Origin: an uncultured Eubacterium sp.
GTDB taxonomy: Bacteria; Bacillota; Clostridia; Oscillospirales; Acutalibacteraceae
Assembly (NCBI RefSeq): GCF_945980375.1
Contig: NZ_CAMFQO010000013.1
Span: 1-44,645 of the forward strand
Length of the DNA stretch: 44,645 nt
Direction: 5' to 3'
Below are positions 38,526 to 42,752 of this stretch, in pieces. Under the pieces are notes generated by a model. It saw only the letters and a program-made list of their open reading frames with translations. It was not told the origin of the DNA and ran no database searches. Made by a program: the position numbers and the translations under genes. Positions within the stretch are counted from its first letter, which is position 1. Every line of letters begins with the position of its first letter.

Positions 38526-39701
38526 ATGCCAAGAATCACAGCACAAGAAGTTCAAACAATACCTTACGGACCGTTAGGCATCATTGCCCTTCCGGGTACA
38601 GAGGAAATCGCAAGAAAGATTGACAGCTACCTTGTTAAGTGGAGAGCCGAGCAGGCAGCAGCCCACAAGGAAAACATTGCTTTTTACGGCTATCAAAGAG
38701 ATTCGTACCTAATCAACACATCTATCGCAAGATTCGGAAGCGGTGAGGGCAAGGCTGTAATTAACGACACTATCAGAGGCTATGACCTGTACATTATTGC
38801 CGATTGCTTCAATTACAGCGTTACATATAATATGTACGGTATGGATGTTCCGAAATCTCCTGATGATCATTTTTCCGATTTGAAAAGAGTTATTTCCGCT
38901 GCGTCAAGCAAGGCAAAGAGAATAAATGTTATTATGCCTATGCTTTATGAGGGCAGACAGCACAAAAGATCATCTCGTGAATCTCTTGACTGTGCTATGG
39001 CATTACAGGAACTTACATCTCTCGGCGTTGAAAACATCATCACATTTGATGCTCACGACCAAAGAGTACAAAACTCAATTCCTCACAAGTCATTTGAAAA
39101 TGTTATGCCTACCTACCAAATGATAAAGGCACTTGTTAACTCTGTTGAGGACCTTAGCGTTGACCCTAATCATCTTATGGTTATATCTCCTGATGAGGGT
39201 GCAATGCACAGATGTATTTACTTTGCAACACAGCTTGGTGTTAACCTTGGTATGTTCTACAAGAGAAGAGATTATACAAGAGTTGTAAACGGAAGAAATC
39301 CTATTGTTGCTCATCAGTATCTTGGCGAAAGCGTTGAGGGCAAGGACATCATCATTGTTGACGACATGATTTCATCAGGCGAAAGCATGCTTGAGGTTGC
39401 AAGAAAGCTTAAGGAACTAAAGGCAAAGAGAATCTTTGTTTGTACTGCGTTTGGTCTTTTCTGCAACGGATTGGAAATTTTTGACAAGGCGCACGAGGAA
39501 GGTGTTTTTGAAAAGGTGTTTACCACAAACGGTGTGTACCAATCACCTGCTCTCCTTTCTCGCGATTGGTATCAAAGTGTTGAGCTTTCAAAGTATCTTG
39601 CATATTTCCTTGATACAATTAATCACGACCTCTCTGTATCATCACTCCTCGACTCATCAAATAAAATTGACAAATTACTTAAAGACAAGGGATTGAAATA
39701 A
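38526..39701 (+). CDS. prs: Ribose-phosphate pyrophosphokinase, long divergent form
   Basis: This 391-residue protein makes PRPP from ribose 5-phosphate and ATP, feeding purine, pyrimidine, histidine, tryptophan and NAD synthesis. It keeps the class I plan: FGSGEGKAVINDTIRGYDLYI near 68-88, the helix with YEGRQHKRSSRE near 140-150, ITFDAHDQRVQN near 170, SPDEGAMHR near 220 and the PRPP-binding loop IIVDDMISSGESM near 275-287. It is about 75 residues longer than usual enzymes and the loop reads DDMISSGES where most have DDMIDTAGT. This longer form occurs in clostridia; allosteric behaviour may differ. AGAGGAG precedes the ATG. The next gene starts on the base after its stop. Confidence 0.88.
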   Translation: MPRITAQEVQTIPYGPLGIIALPGTEEIARKIDSYLVKWRAEQAAAHKENIAFYGYQRDSYLINTSIARFGSGEGKAVINDTIRGYDLYIIADCFNYSVTYNMYGMDVPKSPDDHFSDLKRVISAASSKAKRINVIMPMLYEGRQHKRSSRESLDCAMALQELTSLGVENIITFDAHDQRVQNSIPHKSFENVMPTYQMIKALVNSVEDLSVDPNHLMVISPDEGAMHRCIYFATQLGVNLGMFYKRRDYTRVVNGRNPIVAHQYLGESVEGKDIIIVDDMISSGESMLEVARKLKELKAKRIFVCTAFGLFCNGLEIFDKAHEEGVFEKVFTTNGVYQSPALLSRDWYQSVELSKYLAYFLDTINHDLSVSSLLDSSNKIDKLLKDKGLK

Positions 39702-40223
39702 ATGAGCAAAAAAAACGGCAAAGCAAAGGTTAAGCTTGCGTTAATTATCATCGCAAGCATACTTATACTTACATTAACTCCTACACTTATTTACTGCGGA
39801 GTAAAGCAAATTAATCCTGTTGAGGTTGTATCCTCTGCATTTACATCCAACAACCCTGAGCTTTTGATTGGAAAATGGCAAAACGAATCAAGAAGCTCTG
39901 CATATGAATTTTATGACAACGGCTCATACGACAGCTATTTCAGCACATTTTCTTTTACCGGTGACTATACCGTTAAGGGCAACGAACTAACACTTTCAAA
40001 CCCTGCAAGCGACAGCACGGTTGTATATAAGTTTTCTGTTGACAAGAAAAAGCTTACCCTGTCATTAGACAAGGAAAACGGACTTGATTCGGAAAATGAA
40101 CAGGTTGTTGAATACACAAGAGTTGACAGGATAGAAATGAAATCCTTAACTGACCTTTTGGGCGATATTGTTGATTCTGCAAACGAAGAGTCAGAAGATG
40201 ATACCGCAAATGAGGAACAATAA
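39702..40223 (+). CDS. Small membrane-anchored protein with lipocalin-like domain
   Basis: This 173-residue protein has a lysine-rich start, one hydrophobic helix at about residues 11-32, then a beta-rich domain beginning LIGKWQNES and running through GDYTVKGNELTLS to VEYTRV. This resembles small lipocalin-like or DUF5640-type domains in clostridial exported proteins. The final 20 residues are strongly acidic. The cysteine after the helix (LIYC) does not form a good lipobox, so I call it a membrane anchor, not a lipoprotein. Its ATG directly follows the prs stop, with AAGGG at 10 bases inside prs, so the two are translationally coupled. Function unknown. Confidence 0.7.
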   Translation: MSKKNGKAKVKLALIIIASILILTLTPTLIYCGVKQINPVEVVSSAFTSNNPELLIGKWQNESRSSAYEFYDNGSYDSYFSTFSFTGDYTVKGNELTLSNPASDSTVVYKFSVDKKKLTLSLDKENGLDSENEQVVEYTRVDRIEMKSLTDLLGDIVDSANEESEDDTANEEQ

Positions 40224-40238
40224 AACGTAACAGTATAG

Positions 40239-40267
40239 TAATATAAATCAATAATCGGTCATATTAT
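40239..40267 (+). promoter_or_regulatory. Candidate sigma-E promoter for spoIIID
   Basis: TAATATA (40239-40245) and CATATTAT (40260-40267) are separated by 14 bases, the sigma-E arrangement and the same spacing as the candidate ahead of spoIIIAA. Transcription would start at about 40272-40274, roughly 20 bases before the ATG. In B. subtilis spoIIID is transcribed by sigma-E. Confidence 0.5.
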
Positions 40268-40298
40268 TTACTTGTAAAAAGGAGTAAATAATATGACC
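40257..40298 (+). promoter_or_regulatory. 15-bp inverted repeat enclosing the spoIIID ribosome binding site and start codon
   Basis: GGTCATATTATTTAC (40257-40271) and GTAAATAATATGACC (40284-40298) are perfect inverted copies around a 12-base loop. The loop contains the AAGGA of the ribosome binding site, and the right arm contains the ATG at 40293-40295. In RNA copied through from prs this would be a hairpin that hides the start. In DNA it is a dyad that overlaps the candidate sigma-E -10. Confidence 0.75.
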
Positions 40299-40553
40299 AA
40301 AAATGTTCAGGCAAGATGTATAGAGCTTGGTGAATTTATTGTTAAAAACAAAGCTACCGTCAGACAGACTGCAAATGTTTTCGGCATAAGCAAAAGCACT
40401 GTACATATAGATGTTACCAAACGATTAAGCGAGATTGCTCCCCTGCTTGCAAAGGATGTAAACGATGTGCTTCAATGCAACAAATCCATAAGGCACATTC
40501 GTGGAGGCGAAGCAACAAGAGAAAAATATCTCCATATAAAAGGAAAGAAGTAA
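40293..40553 (+). CDS. spoIIID: Sporulation transcription regulator SpoIIID
   Basis: This 86-residue DNA-binding protein switches mother-cell gene expression from sigma-E to sigma-K programmes. It has the helix-turn-helix ATVRQTANVFGISKSTVHID at residues 22-41, then the conserved RLSEIAPLLAKDV and a basic C-terminal tail with RHIRGGEATREKY. The sequence is close to the classic protein throughout. AAGGAG lies before the ATG but is enclosed by an inverted repeat. The only upstream small frame, ATG at 40210 with six codons, ends before the repeat, so I see no counterpart of the usd leader frame of B. subtilis. proC follows 4 bases later. Confidence 0.96.
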   Translation: MTKNVQARCIELGEFIVKNKATVRQTANVFGISKSTVHIDVTKRLSEIAPLLAKDVNDVLQCNKSIRHIRGGEATREKYLHIKGKK

Positions 40554-40557
40554 AGCT

Positions 40558-41349
40558 ATGTCTATAGGATTTATAGGTTGCGGAAATATGGCGAGCGCCA
40601 TCATTTGCGGAATTATTGACAGCAAGGCTGTAAACGAAAGCGAAATAAACATATATGATATTTATGCACCTGCAACCAACGCAATTAAAGGTAAATACAA
40701 TGTCAATGTTTTAAGCAGTGAAAAAGAGGTTGCGCAAAGCAGTGATACAGTTATTTTGGCAGTTAAGCCAAATGTTCTTGCCTCTGTGCTGAAAAGCATT
40801 GATGATGTAATAAACGACAAATTAATTATTTCCATCGTTGCGGGCAAAAGCACGGAATTTATACAATCAGGGCTTTCACAGGAGGCAAGGATTATCCGTG
40901 TTATGCCAAACATTAACGCAAAGGTCGGTGAGGCAATTTGCGCCTACACAGCAAATGCCAACGCAAGCGAGGATGATAAAAGAATTACCGAAAGAATCTT
41001 TTCTGCAGTTGGCGAAGTTATTTATCTTGATGAAAGCTACTTCCCTCTTTTCGGCGTTCTTGGTGGTTGCACTCCGGCACTTGCTTATATGTTCATTGAC
41101 GAGCTTGCAAGAGCAGGCGTAAAAAACGGAATGAAAAAGGATGTTGCATTAAAGATTTGTGCTCAAGCGGTATTAGGCAGTGCCAAAATGATTCTTGAAA
41201 GCGACGAGCATCCGTATGAATTAATTGACAAGGTTTGCTCTCCGGGAGGCACGACGATTGAGGCAATCACCTCTCTTCAAGATGACGGCTTCGAAGCAGC
41301 AATTCACAGAGCTGTTGATAAAGCAGTAGACAAAGATAAAAGGTTATAA
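40558..41349 (+). CDS. proC: Pyrroline-5-carboxylate reductase
   Basis: This 263-residue NAD(P)H-dependent enzyme carries out the last step of proline synthesis. The Rossmann opening IGFIGCGNMASAII is at residues 3-16, followed by SSDTVILAVKPN near 62, RVMPNINAKVGEA near 115 and the C-terminal dimerisation domain with SPGGTTIEAITSLQDDGF near 230-247. It is complete. It lies 4 bases behind spoIIID with only a weak AAAGGA ribosome site, so a housekeeping gene appears to be coupled to a sporulation regulator; it may depend on read-through from prs for vegetative expression. Confidence 0.96.
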   Translation: MSIGFIGCGNMASAIICGIIDSKAVNESEINIYDIYAPATNAIKGKYNVNVLSSEKEVAQSSDTVILAVKPNVLASVLKSIDDVINDKLIISIVAGKSTEFIQSGLSQEARIIRVMPNINAKVGEAICAYTANANASEDDKRITERIFSAVGEVIYLDESYFPLFGVLGGCTPALAYMFIDELARAGVKNGMKKDVALKICAQAVLGSAKMILESDEHPYELIDKVCSPGGTTIEAITSLQDDGFEAAIHRAVDKAVDKDKRL

Positions 41350-41400: not shown

Positions 41401-42579
41401 TTATAAGTATTTTTTAATTTCGTCAACCTTATTTGTCTGCTCCCAAGGAACGTTTAGGTCCTCTCTGCCCATATGACCGTAAGCAGCTACCTTTTGGTAA
41501 ATAGGTCTTCTCAAATCAAGGCTCTTGATGATTGCAGAAGGACGAAGGTCAAACACCTTATTAACTATTTCACTAATCTCATCATCAGAGATTTTGCCTG
41601 TTCCAAAGGTGTCAACCATAACGGATACAGGCTTTGCAACGCCGATAGCATATGCAAGCTCTACCTCACACTTATCTGCAAGACCTGCTGCAACAATATT
41701 CTTTGCAACCCATCTTGAAGCGTAAGCAGCAGAACGGTCAACCTTTGTAGGATCCTTACCGGAAAATGCACCGCCGCCGTGACGTGCGTATCCGCCGTAT
41801 GTATCAACGATAATCTTTCTGCCTGTGAGACCTGAATCACCCATAGGACCGCCGATAACAAATCTGCCTGTCGGGTTTACGTAAAATACAGTTTCATCAT
41901 CCATAAGATCTGCAGGAATAGTTGTCTTAATTACCTGCTCGATAATATCATTACGAAGCTGTTCAAGGCTTATATCTGCACTATGCTGTGATGAAACAAC
42001 GACAGTTGTAACACGAACAGGCTTATTATCAACATACTCAACTGTGACCTGTGTTTTGCCGTCTGCACGAAGATAAGGAAGAACGCCATCCTTTCTTACG
42101 GCGGTCAATTTAAGGGCAAGCTTATGAGCAAGAGAAATAGGCATTGGCATAAGCTCAGGTGTTTCGTTACAAGCATAGCCGAACATCATACCCTGGTCGC
42201 CTGCACCGTTGAGGTTATCCTCATCCTCTTCATTGTTTTTAAGCTCAAATGATCTGTCAACGCCCATAGCAATATCAGGTGACTGCTTATCAAGTGATGT
42301 AATAACAGCACAGGTATTACCGTCAAAGCCTTTTTCGCTGTTGTCGTAGCCGATTTCGCAAACAGTCTTACGAACAATGGCATTAATATCTACCTGAGCG
42401 GTAGTTGTAATTTCTCCCATAACATGAACCTGACCGGTTGTACAGGTTGTTTCGCAGGCAACTCTTGACATTGGATCCTGCTCAATCATTGCATCAAGGA
42501 TGGCATCTGAAATCTGGTCACAGATTTTATCAGGATGTCCTTCTGTAACAGATTCGCTTGTAAATAAAAATCTTGACAT
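41401..42579 (-). CDS. metK: S-adenosylmethionine synthetase
   Basis: This 392-residue enzyme makes SAM from methionine and ATP. It has [19 protein letters not shown] at the N-terminus with the methionine/ATP-binding His and Asp, the hexapeptide GAGDQG near residue 124, the P-loop-like GGGAFSGKD near 267 and the C-terminal [18 protein letters not shown]. It is complete and of standard length. AGAGGT precedes the ATG. Expression is controlled by the SAM-I riboswitch directly upstream, a negative feedback loop by its own product. Confidence 0.98.
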
Positions 42580-42645: not shown

Positions 42646-42752
42646 GATAATTCATCATTCGGTATTATCTTACCGCAGGTATTAGCACCTTACAATTGCA
42701 GGTTGCTGTGGTGTCACAGGGCCAGTCCCTCAACCACTCTTGATAAGCGATA
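42646..42752 (-). promoter_or_regulatory. SAM-I (S-box) riboswitch aptamer
   Basis: The minus strand reads CTTATCAAGAG at the 5' side, then GAGGGACTGGCCC, then CAGCAACC and GGTGCTAATACCTGC, followed by a CGGTA/TACCG stem and a P1 3' side with GATGA. These are the invariant segments of the S-box aptamer, including the kink-turn and the pseudoknot loop. With SAM bound, the downstream terminator forms and metK is off. P1 looks weak at its outer pairs. Confidence 0.95.

Follow-up and report, generated by a model that had tools for sequence, protein, structure and literature searches.

A probable silencing hairpin with a nested SigE promoter at the start of spoIIID in an uncultured Eubacterium and its relatives

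In the insertion sequences IS10 and IS50, RNA entering the transposase gene from outside folds the end repeat over the start, and the native RNA starts inside the repeat. In bacteriophage T4, the Shine-Dalgarno (SD) sequence and/or the AUG is sequestered in the e, soc, 49 and I-TevI mRNAs; according to the passages of PMC3014915 that deal with them, the long early RNA of gene e folds, RNA from the late promoter is without the 5' part, the measured effect is about 100-fold, and in T4-related phages the late promoter lies within the region of the 5' strand. A hairpin of 20 or more bp at Bacillus subtilis sigG is described in the relevant section of PMC5942855, as a proposal of its references 9 and 52, as a structure that blocks translation of spoIIGA-sigE read-through RNA but that PsigG-derived RNA cannot form. 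The class of mechanism is established for T4 gene e and proposed for sigG. In B. subtilis, spoIIID itself depends on a leader gene, usd, and its translation is controlled at the leader, as stated in the part of PMC4474612 devoted to it.

The spoIIID locus described here resembles, on the accounts excerpted above, each of these systems in part. It shares with T4 gene e a start that would be sequestered in a long RNA and a 5' strand missing from the RNA of the gene's own promoter, but T4 e is a phage gene with T4 late promoters and a measured effect, whereas the effect at spoIIID is predicted from sequence. Like sigG, it is a sporulation regulator gene whose own-promoter RNA would be free of the hairpin, although the gene and the sigma factors (SigF/SigG) are different ones; IS10 and IS50 differ in being mobile elements. 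With usd-spoIIID of B. subtilis, the locus has in common the gene, a SigE promoter upstream and the prospect of translational control at the leader, but the usd leader gene present there has no counterpart here. A literature search, which lacked most subscription papers, turned up no earlier description of a spoIIID hairpin of this type.

The analysed DNA, hereafter the window, is a stretch of 44,645 nt from an uncultured Eubacterium sp. (contig NZ_CAMFQO010000013.1). On its plus strand, a prs-like gene for phosphoribosylpyrophosphate synthetase (38526–39701, profile match NF005299) is followed by a codirectional ORF of 173 aa (39702–40223, stop codon at 40221–40223), a possible source of read-through, and, after a further 69 nt, by spoIIID (40293–40553, 86 aa, profile TIGR02844), whose product scores 109.7 bits (E 6.6e-32), slightly lower than the cut-off of 111.5; proC (40558–41349, plus strand, TIGR00112) starts 4 nt past spoIIID. 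The SigE homologue of the same genome likewise scores below its cut-off (291 against 348.6 bits). By eye, the N-terminus of the 173-aa product is hydrophobic, and its match to TIGR03066 is weak (19.6 bits); codirectional ORFs of 140–204 aa, known by position and length alone, lie less than 100 nt from spoIIID in 20 of the 30 genus loci listed. On the minus strand, a SAM riboswitch (RF00162, 84 bits, 42649–42749) lies upstream of an ORF (41401–42579) that is metK-like by eye. Between prs and spoIIID, the window scan found nothing resembling a terminator on the plus strand, and a separate scan of the last 140 nt upstream found no intrinsic-terminator-like site in the window's genome or in Eubacterium coprostanoligenes. 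Leaky read-through from prs that also delivers proC, as the original prediction had it, is possible.

The start of spoIIID lies in an exact inverted repeat, which had been described as 15 bp long and which a complementarity check extends to 16 pairs. The left arm (40257–40272, plus strand, 16 nt) would be present only in RNA begun upstream; it is separated by a loop of 10 nt (40273–40282), containing most of the SD, from the right arm (40283–40298), which holds the SD end, the start codon and codon 2, the two arms being 100% complementary. The SD, AAAAGGAG, spans the boundary between loop and right arm, and the ATG (40293–40295) was rightly placed inside the latter, so that the stem covers SD and start codon in the manner of T4 e and sigG. 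Folding the region, as had been suggested, gives an RNA of −22.6 kcal/mol (z −6.98; shuffled mean −6.5), a stability reached by 0 of 200 shuffles. Downstream of the right arm there is no U-run in the window, and AAAAATGTT follows instead.

The promoter elements are interwoven with this repeat. The SigE-type −10, CATATTAT, that had been proposed at 40260–40267 is indeed present within the left arm, and a SigE-type −35, GTAATATA (40238–40245, plus strand), was additionally found 14 bp upstream of it, giving, as read from the letters, the form GTAATATA-N14-CATATTAT with its −10 inside the 5' arm. The octamer CATATTAT is described as a canonical −10 box of mother-cell promoters in C. difficile, where the spoIIID promoter reads ATA-N16-CATATATA, according to the promoter data excerpted from PMC3789822. 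A −10-like motif was found by motif search in 73/73 genus loci, its core is conserved within the genus and CATA is invariant in 19/19 aligned genus sequences. A −35 score of 6–7 out of 7 was reached in 32 of the 73 loci against about 9% in shuffles, a result usable as general −35 enrichment only, since the scan took an upstream CATATT as the −10 in a number of loci. From the position of the −10, the SigE start is predicted at about 40273–40276, and, across the genus, at a median of 13 nt (ATG group, defined below) or 12 nt (TTG group) before the start codon. Since spoIIIAA in the window has GTAATATT-N14-CATAGTCT (35184–35155, minus strand), with a motif and 14-bp spacing like those of spoIIID, this type of promoter is found at two sporulation genes here. 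The leader of spoIIIAA is predicted to be very short and free of any hairpin (fold z 0.03); therefore, a compact promoter alone brings no hairpin with it.

The reading that we favor, with a probability of roughly three in four, is that this hairpin silences spoIIID and carries within it the promoter that relieves the silencing. RNA arriving from upstream would carry both arms, enclose the SD and start codon of spoIIID in the stem and leave SpoIIID untranslated. During sporulation, SigE-RNA polymerase would use the promoter whose −10 is in the left arm; its RNA would start in the loop with a leader of about 18 nt, leaving SD and start codon open for translation. The presumed benefit would be that no SpoIIID is made outside the mother cell. 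In E. coprostanoligenes ATCC 51222 (contig NZ_FUWW01000008.1, locus L002/L115), which has the hairpin and the SpoIIID nearest to that of the window at 84% identity, the sporulation 5' end would fall 5–9 nt after CATATCTT. Computed energies are consistent with this scheme, taking the long RNA as begun upstream and the short one as begun directly after the −10: opening the window's spoIIID start is predicted to cost 15.6 kcal/mol in read-through RNA vs 0.2 in SigE RNA. The medians for the ATG group (n = 27) are 14.6 vs 2.0 kcal/mol, with a median difference of 10.6; the difference is only 2.7 kcal/mol in the TTG group (46 genomes) and 1.1 (median) at spoIIIAA (29 genes, a CATA −10 in 18), and, among the genus spoIIID loci, the −10 placements of L037 and L034 look wrong. 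The core of the original prediction, namely that the left arm is confined to read-through RNA and that SigE RNA starts past it, agrees with the promoter match, with this predicted difference in folding and with the compensatory changes described below. Its further statement that no leader frame covers the repeat is borne out: there is no ATG or GTG between the stop at 40221–40223 and 40293, and the sole TTG, at 40273, is directly followed by TAA. Control by a leader ORF of the usd type is rejected here, since the repeat neither overlaps nor adjoins a translated ORF; that usd is replaced by promoter choice can be offered by way of analogy only.

Relatives provide a means of judging whether the pairing is maintained. 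The genus, which includes E. coprostanoligenes, has spoIIID in 73 of 80 genomes, and these fall, by start region and without a tree, into an ATG group of 27 genomes, the window's included, with the ATG buried as in the window, and a TTG group of 46, whose starts are mostly TTG (L030, L061 and L064 have ATG starts, yet were assigned to it by sequence). The swap, mismatch and covariation statistics that follow ignore phylogeny. Within the ATG group, own arms pair at a mean of −15.9 kcal/mol and swapped arms at −9.9; the summed own-arm energy is −428 against a minimum of −347.5 in 20000 permutations, and in 8/27 single genomes the own arm is better than every swap. Left-window shuffles put 25/27 loci at p ≤ 0.05. 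A swap of coding against coding windows had no effect in this group (p 0.75), and one of left arm against coding was positive with a small effect (p 0.006; −8.0 vs −7.0). The upstream-upstream swap control was also positive (p < 5e-5), a signal that probably comes from the intrinsic-terminator-like sites found directly upstream of spoIIID in 14/27 ATG-group loci, as in 25/46 of the TTG group. The hairpin is retained whether or not such a terminator is present; therefore, it is not simply a means of letting a needed transcript pass.

The compensatory change that the original prediction had named as a check was thus found in the ATG group, in the permutations as well as in the mismatches. In 435 columns of a strand-symmetric alignment, the arms show 17 G-U mismatches vs 1 A-C, with 14 others, and this asymmetry indicates that the plus-strand RNA, and not a DNA palindrome, is selected, although the promoter and SD constraint may add to it. 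The plus-strand fold is more stable than the minus-strand fold in 23/27 loci. A MAFFT alignment (A2) of 19 of the 27 loci, with L003, L005, L006, L007, L031, L032, L034 and L035 omitted for their different loop geometry, fits the outer nine pairs only, alignment of the inner stem having been unsuccessful. For these nine pairs, standard cells amount to 90.1% vs 76.6% in shuffles, double-change cells to 20 vs 5.6 and covariation to 0.295 vs 0.073, each value being reached by 0/500 shuffles, and covariation is lower in all six slid registers; the number of pairs with change on both sides, 4, is not above shuffles (3.1; 160/500). Counted by register, own arms have 13.4 Watson-Crick pairs of 19 and swapped arms 10.7, a comparison that favors own pairs, as the register was picked per sequence for maximum own pairing. 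The changing pairs connect spoIIID codons 2 onward with the promoter spacer, and since three or four Watson-Crick types are seen at several registers, several independent double changes are needed. A covariance model (R1) run on 40 genomes gave 10 matches at E < 0.1, all at spoIIID; it is a weak test of specificity, with 144 candidates scored per genome and 8/10 matches being training sequences, the other two coming from G013 and G014. On the window, the model scores 49.6 bits on the plus and 24.4 on the minus strand.

These data bear on the possibility that the palindrome is a DNA operator, over the SigE promoter, for a dimeric regulator, be it SpoIIID or another. SpoIIID is a DNA-binding protein and the perfect palindrome overlaps the −10, which would suit an operator; however, outside the promoter/start-codon core the arms vary and covary, the loop of the ATG group ranges from 2 to 19 nt, and the mismatches are not symmetric between strands. 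With its arm sequence not conserved, the operator palindrome was rejected, and we consider it very unlikely. For the silencing hairpin, the paired mutations in relatives suggest that the fold is a built-in guard against mistimed SpoIIID.

The TTG group gives a different picture. Its swap was significant for the outer arms (p 0.016) and not for the inner stem (p 0.96), and 13/46 loci reach p ≤ 0.05 with left-window shuffles. The ATTACC on the −10 side can pair with codons 3–5 (GGTAATGT), a pairing that is mostly invariant, coincides with GNV codons and shows no G-U excess (4 G-U vs 2 A-C). In L015–L029 and other loci of this group, it is conserved and involves GGT AAT GT (Gly-Asn-Val) and not the SD or start; no compensatory change in it was seen among the TTG-group loci. 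When arms were swapped across the whole genus in a single fixed window, the result was not significant (12/73 loci better than 95% of swaps; KS p 0.19).

Outside the genus, an order-wide search found spoIIID in 241 of 295 genomes, part of which were used, and 80 of 589 loci were kept from named Clostridia. Starts were placed in 232 of 235 loci, those of the genus included (L153, L243 and L187 are without a start), and dropping nine of the 232 as duplicates left 223 distinct loci, 150 of them outside the genus, an uneven set with many Lachnospiraceae by title. Tested against dinucleotide-shuffled left windows, the hairpin is significant (p ≤ 0.05) in 57 of the 150 loci, and 93 do not pass. The corresponding counts were 17/150 for a far-upstream left window, 8/150 for a coding right window, 4/38 for downstream genes outside the genus and 8/56 for those within it. 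At spoIIIAA there was no excess (3/30; L281 is without a start, and starts are probably misplaced in L265, L266, L270, L274, L293 and L106); spoIVA was dropped as a control promoter, its start seeming to follow another ORF in most of the 13 loci inspected. In 40/150 loci, own arms do better than 95% of swaps, against 7 and 8 in the coding controls and 17 in the far-left window (4e-4), with the swap controls themselves deviating slightly (KS p 0.03–0.04). The hairpin sequences are unrelated between lineages, as in L134 (AACCCCTCAGAGTACTT / AAGTATTCTGAGGGGTT around CATACAATGTAAA) and L219 (AAACCTCCTTAACATAT / ATATGTTAAGGAGGTTT). Four loci from a different family of the order (L076, L214, L235, L236) have a GACC/GGTC arm in place of TTACC/GGTAA; these loci are not among the 57 because their left arm runs beyond the test window. 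A T-box leader (RF00230, L143:2892–3179) was observed a little downstream of spoIIID in a Eubacterium MAG.

The placement of these arms is relevant to a further alternative, in which the hairpin acts on a long sporulation mRNA as a tuner or switch, in the form of a thermometer or of a leader opened by an sRNA or protein, and has nothing to do with read-through. Covariation alone cannot distinguish which long RNA folds, which leaves room for such a switch. Against it, the position of the left arm matches that of the −10, and in 51 of the 56 significant outside hairpins with a scorable −10 (that of L239 is not scorable) this arm is complete before the latest SigE start predicted; it covers at least part of the −10 or extends past it in 44 and is wholly upstream of it in 12. 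All 56 right arms begin no farther downstream than −8, and 24 of them extend to the start codon, although the test window of −56 to −22 partly favors this placement. No Rfam match was found at the element in the window or at five other loci, which likewise speaks against a switch of this kind, here judged quite improbable; a known Rfam element is rejected on the same result.

In many outside loci, the hairpin takes a form that may act on transcription. A stem of −10 kcal/mol or less that stops directly ahead of the start, with a U-run after it, occurs in 34 of the 150 loci, 26 of which are also among the 57 with significant hairpins; shuffled left windows give 4–10 such loci, or 0–2 vs 24 seen at −15 kcal/mol, and spoIIIAA has none (0/29). 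The U-run often extends into a TTG start (GAGGGGATTTTTTTTG). In L127, L134, L137, L142, L184 and L219, the TTG start stands at the end of the U-run after an SD-containing stem and looks as if it had grown out of a terminator tail; L142 belongs to Mediterraneibacter glycyrrhizinilyticus, a species of Lachnospiraceae. From its sequence, this U-run hairpin is perhaps a terminator with a nested promoter, which would stop read-through RNA and spare SigE RNA. That the hairpin is generally a terminator of read-through transcription, with the SigE promoter nested in it and with no translational block, would account for the U-run form, but it does not apply in the window, where a terminator is rejected, there being no U-run and none in the scan, and the standard terminator scan does not flag L134, whose loop is long (14 nt); we hold this to be a marginal possibility. 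It is hardly credible that the hairpin is a functionless by-product of AT-rich sequence combined with the SD and a promoter spacer resembling an anti-SD, since, although swapped arms are already fairly stable, own arms beat 20000/20000 permutations and spoIIIAA, with a compact SigE promoter too, shows no excess.

The genes upstream of spoIIID differ in length and first residues. By crude ORF calls, they are codirectional in 97 of the 131 loci with a neighbor called, out of 136 loci that include genus members and six duplicate copies. Significant hairpins occur in 21/37 loci with a close codirectional upstream gene vs 10/31 with an opposite gene, and the hairpin z-scores of codirectional and opposite neighbors do not differ significantly (p 0.26). 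For the silencing hairpin with its nested promoter, a wider form can be proposed to which we give even odds: a one-piece insulator across the Clostridia, with the SigE promoter nested in it and the SD in the 3' arm, by which incoming RNA would be either terminated, through a U-run into TTG, in many sampled Lachnospiraceae, or translationally silent, as in the window, and from which SigE RNA, without the 5' arm, would escape in both cases. Because the sequences are unrelated between lineages, such a device would have been rebuilt, or would have drifted by paired change, many times, beside differing upstream genes.

If true, a promoter inside the 5' arm would serve as a sequence rule for finding other insulated genes, and in its terminator form the element would offer a compact natural part able to stop transcription from outside while driving its own gene. 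The idea is also relevant to the question of why spoIIID of B. subtilis requires a leader gene. It would mean, too, that strong and long-lasting selection acts to protect a developmental regulator from read-through.
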